Assembly (NCBI GenBank): GCA_019873655.1
Contig: JAIOAU010000026.1
Span: 1 to 36,443 of the forward strand
DNA: 36,443 nucleotides
Direction of reading: 5' to 3'
DNA from: Chloroflexota bacterium
Lineage (GTDB): Bacteria > Chloroflexota > Anaerolineae > Anaerolineales > Villigracilaceae
A program made the translations under genes and the position numbers. Below, one piece after another: positions 6,665 to 24,749 of the stretch (position 1 is its first letter; each line of letters opens with the position of its first letter). The notes below the pieces were generated by a model that did not search any database, was not told the DNA's origin, and saw only the letters and a program-made list of their open reading frames with translations.

Positions 6665-9600
6665 ATGCTGTCCATCCGTCTGCTGGGTCCCCCCCTGATC
6701 GAATACGATGGCCAGCCGCTCCGCATCCAGCGGCGCATTCCACGCGCCCTGCTCTTCTACCTGGCCGCCGTCGGCGGGCCGGTGGGGCGCGGCGAACTCC
6801 TCTTCCTGTTCTGGCCCGAAGAAAACGAAGAAAAAGCCCGCGAACACCTGCGCGACAACCTGGCGAAACTGCGCGCCGCCCTGCCCGACCCCAGCCTGGT
6901 GCAGACCTCGCCCGAGACCGTCGGCCTGGATTTTTCGCGCCTGACGGTGGACGTGCTCGAATTCCGCCGTCTGACCGAACAGGCCGGCCCCCTGACCCGC
7001 AAACCGCCCGCCGGCGCGCGCCTCTCGGCCTCGGCCTACTACGCCCTTTCCGAAGCGGTCCGTCTTTGGCGCTCGCCCAACTTCATGGCGGGCGCCGATT
7101 TGTCCATCTCGCCGCCCTTCGACGAATGGCTCTCGCGCACCGACCACACCCTGCAATTGACCTACCAGCGCGCCCTCGAGCGCCTGGCCGAACAGGAAAT
7201 CGCCGCCGGCAACCACGAGAAAGCCATCGAATGGCTGCGCCGCGCCCTCGAACTCGACCCTTACAACGAAGACCTCCACCACCAACTGATCAGCCTGCTC
7301 ATCGAAAGCGGAGCGCGCAACGAGGCCCTCCTGCACCTCACCGCCCTCAAAAACCTGCTCGACCGCGAACTCGGCATGCCCCCCTCCGAAAAAATCCTGG
7401 GGCTGGAGAGACGGTTGAACAAACTCGCCGCGCCCGCCACCGGCCCCCTCAAAGCCGTCTGGCCGCTGCGCCCCACCGTCCAGGCGCCCTTTGTGGGGCA
7501 AAGCCAGAACCTGGAGCGCCTGCAAAACGCCTACCGCCGCGGCGGCGGCGTGCTCATCTTCGGCGAGGCCGGCGCCGGCAAGACCCGCCTGGTGCAGGAA
7601 TTCTACCAACGCTTGCCCTCCACCCCGCGCCTGCTGATCGGCGCCTGCCGTCCCACCGAATCCAATCTGCCCTTCCAGCCCTGGATCGAACTCCTGCGCC
7701 ACAGCCTCAGCCGTAAGGAATGGCTGCAACTGCCCGTGACCTGGGCCAGCCACCTCTCCCTGCTCCTGCCCGAACTGGTCAGCCTGCGCCCCGACCTGAC
7801 CGCCGTCCCCGACGTCCGTTCCGACCAGATGCGGGCGGCGCTGTTCGAGGTCATCCGCGCCCTGCTCACCGAACAGGCGCGCCAGTGGCCGCTGCTGCTC
7901 TTCTTCGACAACATCCACTGGGGCGACGAGGCCAGCCTCAACGTCCTGGCCTACCTGCTCGAACACGGCGTCTTCGGCGCCGGCAACGGCCTGCTGGTCA
8001 TGACCGCCCGCACCGAGGAAAACAACCCCTTCCTCGACCGCTTCCTGCTCTCCGCCTCGCCCGCCTTCCGCCTCGAGTCGCTCGAAGTCACCCGCCTCGA
8101 ACCGCCGGAAATCGCCGAACTGGCCTATCACGTCCTGGGCAAACAACCTCCCATGCGGCTGGTCGAACGCCTCGCCCAGGACACGGGCGGCAACCCCTTC
8201 TTCCTGCTCGAAACCCTCCAGGCGTTGCTCGATTCACACACCGACCTCGAAGCCGTGGACGCCCTTCCCCTGGCCAGCAGCGTGCATCAACTGATTCAAT
8301 CCCGCCTCCAGCGCCTCTCGGCCCCCACGCGCGAACTCCTGATGGCCGCCGCCGTGCTGGGCAGCGAGTTCCAGGTGACCCTGCTCGAAAAGGTCGCCGG
8401 TCACTCGCCCGAGCAGATCGCCCAGGCGCTGGAAGAACTGGAAAGCGCCCGTCTGCTGCACATCACCACCAGCGAAGAGACGCTCAGTTACGCCTTCAGC
8501 CACGAAAAAATTCGTGAAAGCCTGCTGCAAGAACTCAGCCCGGCCCGCAAACGCCTCCTCCACCTGCGCGTCGCCCGCGCCCTCGCCGACCACTTCGGCG
8601 CCGAGCGGGGACGCTTCGCCGCCGTCCTGGCCTCTCACTACGAAGAAGCCCTCGCCTTCCCCGAAGCCTTCGACGCCTGGGTGCAGGCCGGCCAGTACGC
8701 CCAGCGCCTCTCCTCCTTCGCCGACGCCTCCGCCGCCTTCCAGCGCGCCGAACGCCTCATCCCGCGCACCGCCGCCCTCAGCGACGAACAAATCTACCAC
8801 CTGTACATGGAATGGGGCGCGATGCTCAGCGAAATCAACGACACCCTCACCCTGCGCCGCATCTACCAGACCCTCATGCGCCTCGCCGCCGATCGTTCCA
8901 GCCCTCTGCTGACCGGCAAAGCCCTCGACGGCCTCTCGGAAGCCTGCTTCACCGTCAACGAGTTCGAGGAAGGCCTGCAATACAACGCCCAGGCGCTGCC
9001 CTACCTGCAAAAAAGCGGCCATCTCTTCAGCCAGATGGAAGCCCTCACCCACCGCGGCCTGTACCTCTACATGCTCAACCAAATCGAGGAGGCCCAGGAA
9101 GTCTTCCGCGAAGCCCTGGAGATCGCCCCCCACACCGAAGACCCCCTGCTCCTGCAAGCCCGCGGCCACGCCAACTACCGCATGGCCCTCACCTATATCA
9201 TCGCCGGCTGGCCGCGCGAAGCCCTGCGCTACGCCGAACAATCTCTGCGCGATTACAGCCGCGCCAGCCGCGCGCATGGACAAGTCATGACGCATGTCGT
9301 CTTGAGCATGGCCAATCACTTCCTGGGCGACTTCGCCATCGGGCGCACCATCGCCCAGGCCGGCATCGAACTGGCTGAACGTTTCGCCGGCTGGCGCATG
9401 CTGGGCGACCTGCACGTGTGCAGCGCCTTCAACGAACTCGATCTGGGCGAACTCGGCGCCGCCTGGCAATCGGCCCAAAAAGCCCTCGCCCTGGGCAACA
9501 AACACGGCCATCACGACATCACCGCCGCCGCCTACCGCGCCTGCGGCGACATCTACCGCCATCTGGGCGCTTTCAACCAGGCCGTCAGCATGTACAAACG

Positions 9601-20127: not shown

Positions 20128-22395
20128 GTGGCCGGAAAGAGACGCAAACGCTGGGAACGACCGCAGATTCTTTCGGACCTGCCGCTGCGCGAGGCGGACG
20201 AGGCCTATTTCCACTTCGACGACTTCGCCGGGACGCTGGCCCTCTTGATCGCCGACCCGAACACGCGCACGCCGCTGACGATCGGCGTCAGCGGGCCGTG
20301 GGGCTCGGGCAAGACCACCCTCCTGCGGCGGGTGAAGACCCTGCTGGAGACGCGCGACCGGGAGGGACGGCCCTTCTTCGCCAGCGAGGGGGAAACAGCC
20401 AGCGATTTCCGCGCCTGCAAGACGGTCTGGTTCGACGCCTGGAAGTACACCGACGAGGATGAACTGCTGGTGGCGCTGGTGCGCGTCATCCTGGCGGCGA
20501 TGAGGCGCGACGGCCTGTTCAACAAACTCAAGGCGGCCGCCGAAGATCCGCAGCAACCGAAATACGACCTGCTGAACCTGTTCCTCAACGCCTTCCAGTT
20601 CAAATTCGGCGGGCTGGGGGCCGAGGTGCAGGTCAAATTCGACCCGAAAAAGTTCGAGAAGGAATCCCCCTTCGTCTCGCATACCGCCTTCTTCGACTAT
20701 TTCGACGAGGCCTTCGAGCGCCTGCTGGCCCTGTGGGTGCACGGCCGGGGCGACTTCCGCAAGATCGACGAGACCCGGGGCGCGCTGGTGGTCTTCATTG
20801 ACGACCTCGACCGCTGCCTGCCGGAGAAGACCGTCCAGGTGCTGGAGGCGGTCAAACTGTTCCTCGACAAGCCCGGCTGCATCTTCCTGATCGGGGCGCA
20901 CACCCAGGTGGTGCAGGAGGCGGTGACCCGCTTCTACGCCGGCATGAGCGCCGAAACCGCCGCCGACTACCTCGAGAAGGTCATCCAGTTGCGCCTGGAA
21001 CTGCCGCCCATCCCCGAACCGCAGATGGGCGAGTTCTTCGAGGCGCAGAAGGAGGCGCGCCGCCTGCCCGCCGAGGCCTTCGAACACTGGAAGACCATCG
21101 CCGAGGGGGCCGAGCGCAATCCGCGCAAGGTCAAGACCTTCCTCAACGACCTGAACCTGGCCTGGGCGCTGCTGGTCAACTCGGGGCAGGCGCAGGGCGT
21201 GGACCGCGCCGATTTCACCCGCTGGCAGGTGCTGATGCGGGCCGCGCCCGCCTCGCTCAAGAAGCAGATCTATGAGGTCTTCGACGACCGCGACCTGCGC
21301 TTCAAATTCGTGCAGAACCTGCTCGGCTGGGCGAACGGGGACGCCAGCGCCGCCAAGGTCATCGAGGAGTTCGACTTCAGCAAGAGCCTGCGCCTGCGGC
21401 GCACGCTGAGGAAGATCGGGGATTTCGGGCCGCGCTTCAGCGCCGAGAGCCTCGAGTCGTTGATTTATTTCGTCGCCCCGCCCTCCCCGGCCGAGGCGGA
21501 AAAGGTCCCGGCCGAGGCGAAGGAAAAGCCGCGCCAGGAAGTTCTGGAAGCGCGGCGCGGCGCAAAGGAAACCGAAAAGGCCGCCCTCCCCGAAGCGCGC
21601 CTCTTCGGCGGCCTGGCCTTCCTGCCGGTGCCGGCCGGCAAGTTCCTGATGGGCTCGAGCGACGACAACCCACTCGCCTTTGAGGACGAGAAACCCCAGC
21701 ACACGGTCGAAATTCCCTACCAGTACTGGATCGGGCGGTTCCCGGTCACCAACGAACAGTTCGCCCGCTTCGTCGAAGCCAGGGGGATTGTGACGCTGGC
21801 CGAGAAAGAGGGCGGCTGGACAGGGTCGGAGTACAAAAAAGGCTACGACTGGCGTCACCCGCTCGGTCCCGAGGACAGTTTCGAGAAGAAACTCGATCAT
21901 CCGGTGGTGCAGATTAACTGGCGCGAAGCGCAGGCGTTCTGCGACTGGCTCAACCGGTCGCATGGCGCAGAACTGCCAGAAGGTTATGCCTTCCGCCTGC
22001 CGACGGAAGCCGAGTGGGAGAAGGCCGCCCGCGGCGAGTTCGGCTTCGAGTGGCCGTGGGGCAACGAGTTCGACCCGGACAAATGCAACTCGGCCGAAGG
22101 CGGCAAAGGGGACACCACGCCGGTCGGGATGTACTCGCCGGCCGGCGATTCGCCCTACGGCTGCGCCGACATGGTTGGCAACGTCTGGGAGTGGACGCAG
22201 AGCCTTTACAAGGGCTACCCCTACGACGCCGGGGACGGGCGCGAGGATTTGAAAGCCGGCGGCGCCCGCGTGGTCCGCGGCGGCTCGTTCCTCGGCATTC
22301 ATTGGTACGCCCGCTGTGCGTGCCGGGGCAGGGACAACGCTGCTCGTAGCCTCAATCGGGGGTTTCGCCTGGTGGTCGCTCCCATCTCTCTCTAA
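20128..22395 (+). CDS. KAP P-loop NTPase fused to an FGE/C-type-lectin-like domain; DGR target
   Basis: 755 residues from a GTG with a GGAGGG site. Residues ~30-460 are a KAP-family NTPase: Walker A GPWGSGKTT (56-64), Walker B VVFIDDLDR (221-229), and the AWKYTDEDELLVAL motif after it. A charged linker (~450-490) leads to a formylglycine-generating-enzyme-like domain (~490-755): GRFPVTNEQFARFV, RLPTEAEWEKAARGE, WPWGNEFDPDKC and DMVGNVWEWTQSLY. This fold is also used for ligand display. Residues 712-752 are the variable region of a diversity-generating retroelement. By analogy with DGR-targeted NTPases in multicellular bacteria, it may be a sensor that changes its binding surface, perhaps in defence. 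No membrane segment was seen. Confidence 0.9.
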   Translation: MAGKRRKRWERPQILSDLPLREADEAYFHFDDFAGTLALLIADPNTRTPLTIGVSGPWGSGKTTLLRRVKTLLETRDREGRPFFASEGETASDFRACKTVWFDAWKYTDEDELLVALVRVILAAMRRDGLFNKLKAAAEDPQQPKYDLLNLFLNAFQFKFGGLGAEVQVKFDPKKFEKESPFVSHTAFFDYFDEAFERLLALWVHGRGDFRKIDETRGALVVFIDDLDRCLPEKTVQVLEAVKLFLDKPGCIFLIGAHTQVVQEAVTRFYAGMSAETAADYLEKVIQLRLELPPIPEPQMGEFFEAQKEARRLPAEAFEHWKTIAEGAERNPRKVKTFLNDLNLAWALLVNSGQAQGVDRADFTRWQVLMRAAPASLKKQIYEVFDDRDLRFKFVQNLLGWANGDASAAKVIEEFDFSKSLRLRRTLRKIGDFGPRFSAESLESLIYFVAPPSPAEAEKVPAEAKEKPRQEVLEARRGAKETEKAALPEARLFGGLAFLPVPAGKFLMGSSDDNPLAFEDEKPQHTVEIPYQYWIGRFPVTNEQFARFVEARGIVTLAEKEGGWTGSEYKKGYDWRHPLGPEDSFEKKLDHPVVQINWREAQAFCDWLNRSHGAELPEGYAFRLPTEAEWEKAARGEFGFEWPWGNEFDPDKCNSAEGGKGDTTPVGMYSPAGDSPYGCADMVGNVWEWTQSLYKGYPYDAGDGREDLKAGGARVVRGGSFLGIHWYARCACRGRDNAARSLNRGFRLVVAPISL
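22261..22381 (+). other. DGR variable region (VR)
   Basis: The last 121 bp of the shared segment inside the KAP-FGE gene align with 22511-22634. With one clean codon-sized gap (CCT present only in the template) there are 18 substitutions and every one falls where the template has A (changed to G, T or C); all template C, G and T positions are unchanged. The invariant 3' end (GGGTTTCGCCTGGTGGTCGC) is where cDNA priming would occur. Confidence 0.93.
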
Positions 22396-22510
22396 CTCTG
22401 GACTCTGAATTTCTGGACTCTGATCTCTGGAGGGTGGGGGTCTGGGGCCTCCCCCAGCGCAAATTGTGGTAAACTGCAAGCGTGGCCGCAAGGTCACAGG
22501 GGCCGGTCAC

Positions 22511-22634
22511 AACGACCGCGTGGTCCGCGGCGGCTCGTTCCTCAACAATCATAGGAACGCCCGCTGTGCGTACCGGAACAGGAACAACCCTGATAATCGT
22601 AACCACAATCAGGGGTTTCGCCTGGTGGTCGCTC
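22511..22634 (+). other. DGR template repeat (TR)
   Basis: This 124-bp non-coding copy of the lectin-like gene end lies 115 bp past the stop codon. In the target's frame it reads as mostly Asn codons ([23 protein letters not shown]), the usual signature of a template in which AAY codons can be turned into many amino acids. Its direction matches the target gene. A GTGGCC/GGTCAC-rich segment just before it may form RNA structure. No reverse transcriptase or Avd gene follows in the window, so the enzyme must act from elsewhere or be lost. Confidence 0.92.
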
Positions 22635-22833
22635 ACGCCTCTCTGAAAAGTGTGGGACAAACTTCCATTTTGTCCTGCTGCCCCTGCCGGAAATTCTGCG
22701 CGTCGAACGCCCTGGCGCCTTAGATACGCAGACGAGGCCCTATGAGAGAGATGGCCGACCGTTGCTCCTGGCCGCGCCTCCCTTGGCCCTCTTCTTGGAG
22801 AGGGGCGAAGCGAGGCCGGGCAAATATCGAAGA

Positions 22834-22871
22834 GACCTGCCGCCTGGGATCACGAATCCCCGCGGCAGGTC
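22834..22871. terminator. Long hairpin upstream of the AbiE pair
   Basis: A 10-bp stem GACCTGCCGC (22834-22843) pairs with GCGGCAGGTC (22862-22871) and encloses a second GGGAT/ATCCC stem. The following bases (GATTTA) give only a short T-run, so termination strength is doubtful. Between the TR and this hairpin (22635-22833) I see no gene. Confidence 0.5.
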
Positions 22872-22911
22872 GATTTAATGGCGGCCGACAGTCCCGGCTT
22901 GTTTTTCCCTC

Positions 22912-22950
22912 TTGACGCATTTCTTTATACTCCATAAAATATAGAGTATA
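22912..22950 (+). promoter_or_regulatory. abiEi promoter with an inverted-repeat operator at the start codon
   Basis: TTGACG (22912-22917) and TAAAAT (22935-22940) are 17 bp apart. A perfect inverted repeat TATACTC (22926-22932) / GAGTATA (22944-22950) with an 11-bp gap brackets the -10 box and reaches the first base of the ATG at 22950. AbiEi antitoxins are known to bind inverted repeats in their own promoter, so this is the likely site of autorepression. Confidence 0.75.
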
Positions 22951-23528
22951 TGGGAACGTATAACCTGGCTGCGGCTGCCAAATCCCTCTACGAGGCGCGC
23001 CTGACGCTCCTGACCACGAAAACCCTGCGCGACCTGCTGGGGCCGGCCCTGCCGGAGGCCTCCTTCTTTTCCCTGCTCGACCGCCTCGGCCGTGCCGGGG
23101 TTCTGCGCCGCCTCGAGCGCGACAAGTACATGCTCGCTGACGGCGCGGCGCACGATTTTCAGATTGCCAACTTTTTGTACGAGCCGTCCTATGTCTCTCT
23201 GGAAACGGCGCTCAATTTTCACGGCATCCTTCCGCAGTTTCCCTATGAGATTGCCAGCGTGACGCCGCGCAAGCCGGTCGTCAAGACGCTCGATGGCAAG
23301 ACCTACCGCTACGTTCATCTCAAGCAATCCCTGTTCTGGGGTTACGACGCCGCCCCCGGCTTCCTGGTCGCCCATCCCGAAAAAGCCCTGCTCGATTTGC
23401 TCTATCTCCAATCGAAGGGATTGGCGCGGGCGCACCTGGACGAGATGGAACTCTCGCGCCTCGACCGCGCCCGCTTCGAGGCCTATGCCGGCCGATTTCC
23501 GGCCCTGAAAGGACTGCCGCGCCTATGA
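22950..23528 (+). CDS. abiEi: AbiEi-type antitoxin / transcriptional repressor
   Basis: 192 residues. The N-terminal ~70 residues form a winged-helix domain (TTKTLRDLLGPALPEASFFSLLDRLGRAGVLRRLERDKYML), followed by the AbiEi core with FLYEPSYVSLETALNFHGILPQ and HPEKALLDLLYLQSKG. In type IV toxin-antitoxin pairs AbiEi represses the operon and counters the AbiEii nucleotidyltransferase. The ATG is about ten bases past the -10 box, so the mRNA is nearly leaderless, and the inverted repeat described just upstream covers this site. The stop overlaps the next start by four bases. Confidence 0.85.
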   Translation: MGTYNLAAAAKSLYEARLTLLTTKTLRDLLGPALPEASFFSLLDRLGRAGVLRRLERDKYMLADGAAHDFQIANFLYEPSYVSLETALNFHGILPQFPYEIASVTPRKPVVKTLDGKTYRYVHLKQSLFWGYDAAPGFLVAHPEKALLDLLYLQSKGLARAHLDEMELSRLDRARFEAYAGRFPALKGLPRL

Positions 23529-24289
23529 TGACCCCCGAACAAGTCCGCAGCCTGGCCGCCCGTTTCCGCATCCACGAGACGGTGGTGTTCCGGGAATATC
23601 TCCAGGTGGCCTTTCTGCAGAAACTGTACCGGCGGACGGCTGCTGCTCAAATCTACTTCAAGGGCGGCACGGCCATCCATCTCCTCTTGGGCGCGCCGCG
23701 TTTTTCGGAGGACTTGGATTTCAGCGTCATGCTCGACGACGCGGCATTCGACAAATACATCGCCCTTGTCTTGAAGTGGATGGAAACCGAGGAGGGCGTC
23801 TCATGGAAGGAAAAGGACAGCCTGGCGGGACGTCAGTTTCTCCTGACGGCGGCGGCGGGCGTCCTGCCGCATTCCACCTACATCACGCTCGATTTCTCCT
23901 TCCGCGAACCGGTCCACGACCCTCAACGCTCCATCCTCCAAACCCCTTATCCGGTGATTTTCACTTCGTTTGTCCATCACCTTTCGGCCGAGGAACTCCT
24001 GGCGGAGAAAATCCGCGCCCTGATGACCCGTCAGAAGGGACGCGACCTCTACGACCTGTGGTATCTGCTCTCGAAGGGCGCGCCGATTCGCAGCGATCTG
24101 GTCGCAGCCAAACTGGCCTATTACCGGCGCGCCGATATTTCCCCGGCCGAGATTCTCGAGCGGGTTGCATCTTTTCCCAAAAAAGAGTTCATCCTGGATT
24201 TGCGTCCTTTCCTGCCTCAGGGCGAGCGGGAACGCCTGCCGGAATTGTTCGAATACGTCCAGGCCTTTCTGCGCCAGGCGCTTGCGTGA
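23525..24289 (+). CDS. abiEii: AbiEii-type nucleotidyltransferase toxin
   Basis: 254 residues, start overlapping the antitoxin stop (ATGA). The catalytic block is clear: F46-K-G-G-T49, then RFSEDLDF (residues 59-66) with the two metal-binding Asp residues, and LDFSF further on. The HLSAEELLAEKIRALMTRQKGRDLYDLWYLL segment is the conserved C-terminal helix region of AbiEii/JHP933-type toxins. Such enzymes add nucleotides, for example to tRNA ends, stopping growth and blocking phage. Forms a complete two-gene module with AbiEi, next to the DGR template. No truncation seen. Confidence 0.9.
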   Translation: MMTPEQVRSLAARFRIHETVVFREYLQVAFLQKLYRRTAAAQIYFKGGTAIHLLLGAPRFSEDLDFSVMLDDAAFDKYIALVLKWMETEEGVSWKEKDSLAGRQFLLTAAAGVLPHSTYITLDFSFREPVHDPQRSILQTPYPVIFTSFVHHLSAEELLAEKIRALMTRQKGRDLYDLWYLLSKGAPIRSDLVAAKLAYYRRADISPAEILERVASFPKKEFILDLRPFLPQGERERLPELFEYVQAFLRQALA

Positions 24290-24662: not shown

Positions 24663-24674
24663 GTTTCATCCCTC

Positions 24675-24749
24675 CTACCTGTTTACTTGCTACCTGTTTA
24701 CCTCCTACCTGTTTACCTGCTACCTGTTTACCCGCTACCTCTCCCCTGC
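24675..24749. repeat. 15-bp minisatellite upstream of valS
   Basis: Four and a half tandem copies of CTACCTGTTTACNNG (15 bp each: 24675, 24690, 24705, 24720, then a decayed copy at 24735) fill the space between the T-box terminator and the valS ribosome site. The same words, reverse-complemented, form the repeat at 34147-34213. No spacers of unique sequence are present, so it is not a CRISPR. Confidence 0.85.

Follow-up and report, generated by a model that had tools for sequence, protein, structure and literature searches.

The stretch analysed here, called the window, is a contig of 36,443 nucleotides (JAIOAU010000026.1, positions 1 to 36,443 of the forward strand) from the Chloroflexota assembly GCA_019873655.1 (family Villigracilaceae), and it carries a cassette with the features of a diversity-generating retroelement (DGR), namely a target gene with a variable region (VR) and a downstream template repeat (TR), with no reverse transcriptase (RT) gene found in the window. 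The target protein contains a KAP P-loop NTPase (Pfam KAP_NTPase, 3e-40) fused to a C-terminal FGE-sulfatase domain (7.6e-59), and its FGE part resembles the DGR variable protein TvpA (2y3c, E 1.6e-8), which agrees with the FGE/C-type-lectin-like target named in the initial annotation. The protein is probably a defence sensor. The cassette comprises the following features, each on the + strand; IMH denotes initiation of mutagenic homing.

20128..22395, +, DGR target gene, KAP P-loop NTPase with C-terminal FGE-sulfatase (C-type-lectin-like) domain, 755 aa (Pfam)
22261..22381, +, VR, 3' end of the KAP-FGE gene (alignment to TR)
22382..22391, +, IMH-like VR tail, CCATCTCTCT (alignments, by inspection)
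22482..22497, +, short hairpin 5' of the TR, GTGGCC-GCAA-GGTCAC (by eye)
22511..22634, +, TR, template repeat (alignment to VR)
22635..22644, +, IMH*-like TR tail, ACGCCTCTCT (by inspection)

A VR/TR pair with changes restricted to template adenines

The repeat described in the initial annotation is reproduced exactly: the VR differs from the TR by 18 substitutions and by a CCT codon that is missing from the VR. All 18 substitutions fall on adenines of the TR, whereas none of the 93 aligned C, G or T sites is changed (hypergeometric P=1.0e-14, with A at 28 of the 121 aligned TR positions), a P value that assumes independent positions and a 3-nt gap set on the codon, a placement favouring A. 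This bias supports the DGR origin and the assignment of VR and TR. Placing the gap for the fewest mismatches yields 17 mismatches, and local alignments left free to extend into the 3' tail give 15 A and 3 other changes, or 17 A and 3 other changes when the start lies further upstream; two of the three non-A changes are in the 10-nt IMH-like tail past 22634, and one is an effect of gap placement. The 28 TR adenines occupy codon position 1 (12) or 2 (16) of the target frame and never position 3.

By inspection, the VR and TR tails seem to differ in a similar manner in the window, in the second DGR of this genome (below) and in several relatives, many clade VRs ending in ...CCCATCTC and the TRs in ...CACGCCTC, CACACCTC or CATGCCTC. 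Hairpins similar to that at 22482-22497 also precede many clade TRs by eye.

The absence of an RT or Avd gene nearby, also claimed earlier, holds for the whole 36 kb: tblastn searches with 12 clade RTs, the C-terminal half of the genome's own RT and its own Avd give nothing better than E=0.1, and an RT profile gives no match at E<=1, so that overlooked remains of either gene in the window are rejected. As judged from its sequence, the cassette is a DGR without an enzyme of its own.

The only RT found in the genome

The source genome (3.04 Mb, 45 contigs, estimated 99.8% complete) contains one RT-family match at E<=0.001, located at the end of contig C14 and starting 42 bases past a TIR-FGE gene. 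The start of contig C21 holds, in order, the C-terminal part of an RT, a bAvd gene (Pfam 1.3e-20) and a TR, which differs from the C14 VR at 13 positions, all 13 of them TR adenines (P=4e-10). The GNLTSQ and YVDD motifs of this RT are presumably DGR-like. We infer that C14 and C21 hold a single DGR of the order target-RT-Avd-TR, divided between two contigs. The genome-wide search for a DGR-type RT proposed in the initial annotation thus returns one RT, beside a VR, a bAvd gene and a TR.

At non-A sites, each of the two VRs of the genome fits its own TR only, and an origin of the window VR from the C21 TR is rejected by 26 non-A differences. Further VRs for the window TR, which the initial annotation had suggested looking for, are not found among the 10 other FGE genes of the genome, none of which fits either TR at non-A sites as a present target. 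A second bAvd-like gene is present on contig C13 (G000 C13:5856-6182, 49 bits); the first 15 kb of C13 contain neither an RT or Avd match to the clade (E<=1e-3) nor a repeat pair with A bias.

The RT gene breaks off in repeated DNA at both contig ends. Copies of the terminal ~110 bases of C14 are present at six further contig ends, five of them identical and that of C11 at 99%, and within contig C1 (99%); C6 contains a less similar copy (77%). The initial 111 bases of C21 match the other end of the C1 element at 100%. The C1 copy of this multicopy insertion sequence (IS) encodes a DDE_Tnp_IS1595 transposase domain (1.2e-16).

L002 (C14) 8806-8916 and L038 (C21) 1-111: ends of the IS1595-type element in the sole RT gene found (sequence matches)

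The octamer AAGAACAA borders the IS at both ends and lies within the RT reading frame. Consistent with such a junction, RT homologues mostly align to the C14 part (P0001) up to residue 240-244 only, with one weak match (39%) that reaches 250; own-genome matches to residues 243-279 of P0001 are the IS and are excluded from the RT count. Read across the contig gap, the only RT gene found in the genome therefore seems to be interrupted by an IS1595-type element that duplicated 8 bp on insertion. Since the RT is apparently split, neither locus should be active now in this assembly, and diversification should be stalled at both the window and C14/C21. An intact helper RT is not found in this assembly; the window VR equals its TR at all non-A sites and the sole RT found lies on C14, as for a remote target. 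Several contig breaks of the assembly fall in the same IS1595-type element.

A structured RNA element downstream of the TR

In related genomes, the TRs are followed by a structured element with a GC-rich terminal hairpin, and an element of this kind is present in the window.

22676..22874, +, structured 3' element of the TR RNA (spacer-RNA equivalent) with GC-rich terminal hairpin (model R1)

The covariance model R1, trained on four RT-linked loci with the window left out, finds the window element at the expected place with 62.7 bits (E 5.2e-14), and the only R1 matches above noise in the source genome are the window and C21 elements (the third row has E 0.4). Among 35 aligned elements, 92.5% of the pair cells are standard pairs and the covariation is 0.554, compared with 0.169 after shuffling and at most 0.093 after sliding, the alignment having been fitted to the model structure, which favours the model. 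An early alignment of 12 divergent elements, poor at the terminal hairpin, is left out. The window element retains 32 of the 36 consensus pairs, including 13 of 13 in the terminal hairpin. Rfam gives sub-threshold microRNA-like matches only; none is inside the window element, but those of one relative, L196, do lie inside the element.

The element tree contains 59 rows; of the 62 matches aligned, one duplicate locus and two partial matches were dropped. The window element belongs to a supported clade of 8 rows (99/85) with RT-linked elements, including that of C21.

Directly past the element, at 22950-24289, lie an open reading frame of 192 aa without a Pfam match and an AbiEii nucleotidyltransferase gene (5.3e-33), which are perhaps an AbiE-type toxin-antitoxin pair.

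VR-TR cassettes without RT in the family

Model R1 finds 38 elements in 26 of the 150 family genomes, the set in which RT relatives were also sought. Twenty-eight element loci, picked mainly for the lack of a same-contig RT or for a match to a second model (R2, below), were inspected for VR/TR and RT. A VR/TR pair is present at 18 of the 28, and for 11 of these 18 there is no RT match in the available DNA; owing to the way in which the loci were picked, these counts are not a frequency. An RT profile search of the RT-less loci also finds none.

RT-less VR/TR pairs (11): window, G090:C371, G072:C82, G004:C2, G113:C362, G142:C20, G009:C75, G071:C4, G078:C27, G100:C3, G180:C198

The DNA available around these pairs varies: the contig of G090:C371 is 5.6 kb, G113:C362 is covered for 1.7 kb downstream, and G100:C3 and G180:C198 are at contig ends, where the RT may be absent merely from the contig. 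At the locus G102:C16a, the nearest RT is ~11 kb off. Avd is retained at 4 of the 11 RT-less loci (G113, G142, G071 and G180). A close RT (58-77% identical) is present elsewhere in the genomes G090, G072, G004, G113 and G142, and a fragment in G009; G071 has no close RT relative, G078 has a 29% match only, and G100 has no match among those listed (G180 was outside the set searched). Two of the RT-less cassettes, L226 (G071:C4) and L227 (G078:C27), come from genomes estimated to be 96% and 99% complete, and they may represent natural cases of stranded cassettes.

The pairs that were viewed are mostly A-only, or nearly so, in the core. At G100:C3 (L230 3401-5400), VR and TR are 1.8 kb apart and differ by 16 changes, all of them at A; no RT match is present, and a transposase-like frame of 466 aa is seen by eye between them. 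The G078 pair has two non-A differences and has lost the VR tail. Deletion derivatives are also observed, in which an RT fragment is fused to the RNA element or lies behind the target gene (L055, L101, L094, L188, L180 and L119). The initial annotation had called the lack of a local RT unusual, a view that is weakened by this recurrence in relatives and by precedents in other bacteria (PMC10907252, PMC7517822; these and the papers cited below are represented by excerpts of their text).

Many of these cassettes carry a distinct variety of the RNA element. Model R2 was built from five loci without an adjacent RT (among them G130:C17, which lacks a VR/TR pair), with the window left out, and 152 family genomes were searched. 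It scores above 100 bits at six held-out loci (G113:C362, G142:C20, G080:C6, G009:C75, G071:C4 and G078:C27), which have no RT alongside in the available DNA, G080:C6 lying at a contig start where this cannot be judged. RT-linked loci reach at most 88.7 bits, and G154:C113, with neither RT nor VR/TR, reaches 92.6. In the element tree, one group with weak support (80/66) unites 8 of the 11 RT-less rows with 3 undetermined ones, and the RT-less label is clustered, with 7 changes on the tree, a number as low being found in 2 of 500 shuffles. The window element itself is rejected as a member of this variety: it scores 68.2 bits with R2 versus 62.7 with R1, and RT-linked held-out loci reach 88.7 with R2; its tree position among RT-linked elements also contradicts such an assignment.

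At three loci (L182, L183 and L186), a terminator-like hairpin with a T run and a TATAAT sequence are visible by eye between the target gene and the TR, as if the TR were a transcription unit of its own. Neither is clearly present between target gene and TR in the window.

Homologues of the KAP-FGE target

Sixteen relatives of the KAP-FGE protein were compared. Two of them belong to DGRs that are complete in cis, the RT and Avd genes lying between VR and TR; in L122 (48% identical) all 16 changes are at A, and in L128 (27%) all 20. Another two are remote targets, the matching TR lying beside an RT on another contig: L123 (49%, 15 of 15 at A) and L126 (31%, 17 of 17). For L119, L120 and L124, none of the TRs retrieved from their own genomes gives a match, though each of these genomes has a close RT, and an RT stub of 25 residues is left at the L119 locus. 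From this survey, the KAP-FGE target type is found in cis-complete form, as a remote target and, in the window, RT-less with its own TR.

A TCTG tract downstream of the VR

Immediately 3' of the VR, the window contains a regularly spaced tract.

22397..22444, +, TCTG tract, six TCTG at spacings of 7, 8, 7, 7 and 15 nt (just 3' of VR)

Within the next 90 nt, at least three TCTG are present after 40 of 46 VRs (mean 4.17) versus 0 of 42 TRs (mean 0.36), and random windows of the same loci have a tract in 1% of cases. The 46 VRs consist of an initial set of 37 (33 positive; 33 TRs, 0 positive) plus nine added pairs, and the counts leave out the G056 pair (308 nt, 8 of 10 changes at T) and partial pairs. 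The lowest rows, with one or two TCTG, are G026 (two), G059, G031, G078 and G102b. Neighbouring TCTG are spaced by 7 or 8 nt in 108 of 146 cases (within 90 nt), and in the 18 VRs viewed singly the two spacings often alternate.

In a scan for strict tracts over ~1.09 Mb of partly overlapping DNA around DGR and FGE genes, a C-terminal FGE/C-type-lectin (CLec) motif precedes 31 of 36 distinct tracts, compared with 139 of 4000 random positions; the five tracts without the motif include one simple repeat and two VR ends that the motif overlooks. Since the scanned DNA is centred on DGR and FGE genes, this result makes no statement on whole genomes. Its position makes the TCTG tract a candidate target mark.

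TCTG runs also lie past the stop codons of two other FGE genes of the source genome, G000 C20:3215-3904 (L039 3918; six) and C5:56991-57641 (three). These genes, which match neither TR at non-A sites, are possibly former targets. A further tract past an FGE gene is found at L129 8251; the title of this record, Rhodothermia bacterium, places it outside Chloroflexota. Elsewhere in the window, at 24671-24745, there is a 15-bp tandem repeat of the CCTCCTACCTGTTTA type, whose period is near twice the TCTG spacing.

Interpretation of the cassette

The initial annotation proposed that the cassette is either served in trans or a frozen relic. The present results narrow this choice without closing it: a helper candidate exists at C14/C21 with an RNA element of the same clade, and its RT is apparently split. 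We consider it fairly probable that the window holds a non-autonomous DGR cassette that has lost its RT and Avd, was served in trans by the RT-Avd of C14/C21 and is stalled in this assembly. The ancestor would have been a complete DGR of the order target-RT-Avd-TR, as kept by the KAP-FGE homologues in two relatives, from which RT and Avd were then lost at the window locus. The C14/C21 RT-Avd would recognise the TR RNA of the window by way of the 3' element, a step suggested by the spacer of the phage BPP-1 DGR, which is in the same place, folds and recruits bRT-Avd; copying of the TR RNA would introduce errors at A, and the resulting cDNA would take the place of the VR in the KAP-FGE gene. Finally, the IS1595-type insertion would have split the RT, and both loci would have stalled.

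Several observations weigh against this explanation. The C14-C21 join is one that we infer, and the C14/C21 DGR carries its own TR, which is different from that of the window. A simple scan finds no promoter upstream of the window TR. The end branch of the window element is 0.45 long compared with a median of 0.18, and this long branch and the loss of 4 of 36 pairs could reflect relaxed constraint. The pairs at G102:C16 and G113:C362, which are RT-less with a close RT elsewhere, have several non-A differences, so a helper does not keep every pair matched. The absence of non-A changes in the window, which fits recent trans activity, is also compatible with a recent loss of a local RT.

That last point leads to the relic explanation, in which the cassette was last active with its own cis RT and Avd, these were recently deleted, and the VR/TR pair has not yet decayed. 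It is a possibility to which we give rather less than an even chance. Deletions do occur at such loci in relatives, as the RT fragments in the deletion derivatives above illustrate; L180 combines 17 of 17 A-only changes with an RT stub, and G071, in a genome without a close RT relative, still has an RT-less pair that is A-only in the aligned core. However, no remains of an RT or Avd gene are seen in the window, which means that the loss is not a very recent one; even so, none of the 93 non-A sites has changed. The cassette also retains the hairpin before the TR, the 3' element, the IMH-like tails and the TCTG tract, and the genome contains a possible helper whose RNA element is related. Trans service is therefore favoured over the status of a recent relic.

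The cassette might also be fully active in the living population, where C14/C21 variants with an intact RT would coexist with the interrupted one and serve both targets. A single aggregate of Thiohalocapsa is described as containing both intact RT variants and others interrupted by a transposon (PMC10907252), and since the two RT parts still read through as open frames and the 8-bp duplication has no mismatch, the insertion looks recent; the assembly, however, contains the interrupted state only, and we regard this scenario as unlikely. An ordinary duplication of the gene end (a paralogous repeat), diverged without reverse transcription, would account for two direct copies 250 bp apart, but plain duplication is rejected on the A restriction at P=1e-14 and is further opposed by the similar second pair in the genome (13 of 13), the conserved RNA element and the many such pairs in relatives, so that its probability is negligible.

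Beyond the non-autonomous cassette of the window, the RT-less VR-TR cassettes may tentatively be viewed as a stable 'satellite' form of DGR in the family, with an own TR RNA gene and recognisable 3' element, RT-Avd borrowed in trans and targets marked by the TCTG tract; we hold this to be conceivable, though short of likely. What it would add is that many cassettes have a distinct RNA variety and some have a terminator and promoter-like sequence of their own. If trans service is correct, a shared RT-Avd that reads separate TR RNA units would keep many sensors under targeted hypermutation with one enzyme; if the satellite form is real, surveys that start from the RT would overlook such cassettes and undercount targets. 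The 3' RNA element and the TCTG tract provide two sequence tags for finding templates and targets without an RT.

Comparison with known systems

The closest likeness is Thiohalocapsa sp. PB-PSB1 (Dore et al. 2024, PMC10907252), which shares with the window RT-less loci, RTs cut by transposons, trans activity as the best explanation, and targets in which an NTPase or TIR is combined with FGE/CLec; in the excerpts of that paper, KAP, TIR and FGE targets are described. The multicellular host of the Thiohalocapsa loci is a further likeness, and the KAP and TIR fusions to FGE seen here agree with the idea, put forward by Dore et al., that diversification in multicellular bacteria acts on putative immune sensors. 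The trans-served VRs of Thiohalocapsa (DGR 4 and 5) match the TR of the complete locus, whereas the window has its own distinct TR RNA; also unlike Thiohalocapsa, RT-less VR-TR cassettes recur here across a bacterial family, many of them with their own RNA-element variety.

In cyanobacteria, remote variable proteins are encoded far from the RT and were assigned by TR homology (Vallota-Eastman et al. 2020, PMC7517822). In these, remote VRs are served by the TR of a DGR, and they differ in this from RT-less VR-TR cassettes. Roux et al. (2021, PMC8144416) state in the excerpts that their own survey would miss remote targets, and those of Yan et al. (2019, PMC6642488) contain nothing on RT-less pairs. 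The literature searched, excerpts in which most subscription papers are not included, gives no description of the cassette class or of the TCTG tract. The recurrence of RT-less VR-TR cassettes in the family and the VR-side TCTG tract thus appear, at the level of sequence, to be newer than their precedents.

The DGR of BPP-1 resembles the window in its TR/VR organisation, with IMH and IMH* as possible counterparts of the window tails, and in having a target-side element directly 3' of the VR (PMC3240598, PMC12875486), and it resembles the present system in its Avd and in its 3' spacer RNA, which folds and recruits bRT-Avd (PMC12875486). Unlike the window, it is complete in cis, has its TR after avd, and marks the target by an inverted-repeat hairpin, which is required for efficient homing and stands 3' of the VR, where the window has TCTG direct repeats (PMC3240598). 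TvpA of Treponema denticola (2y3c) has in common with the window an FGE/CLec variable protein, the FGE part in the window being fused to a KAP NTPase.

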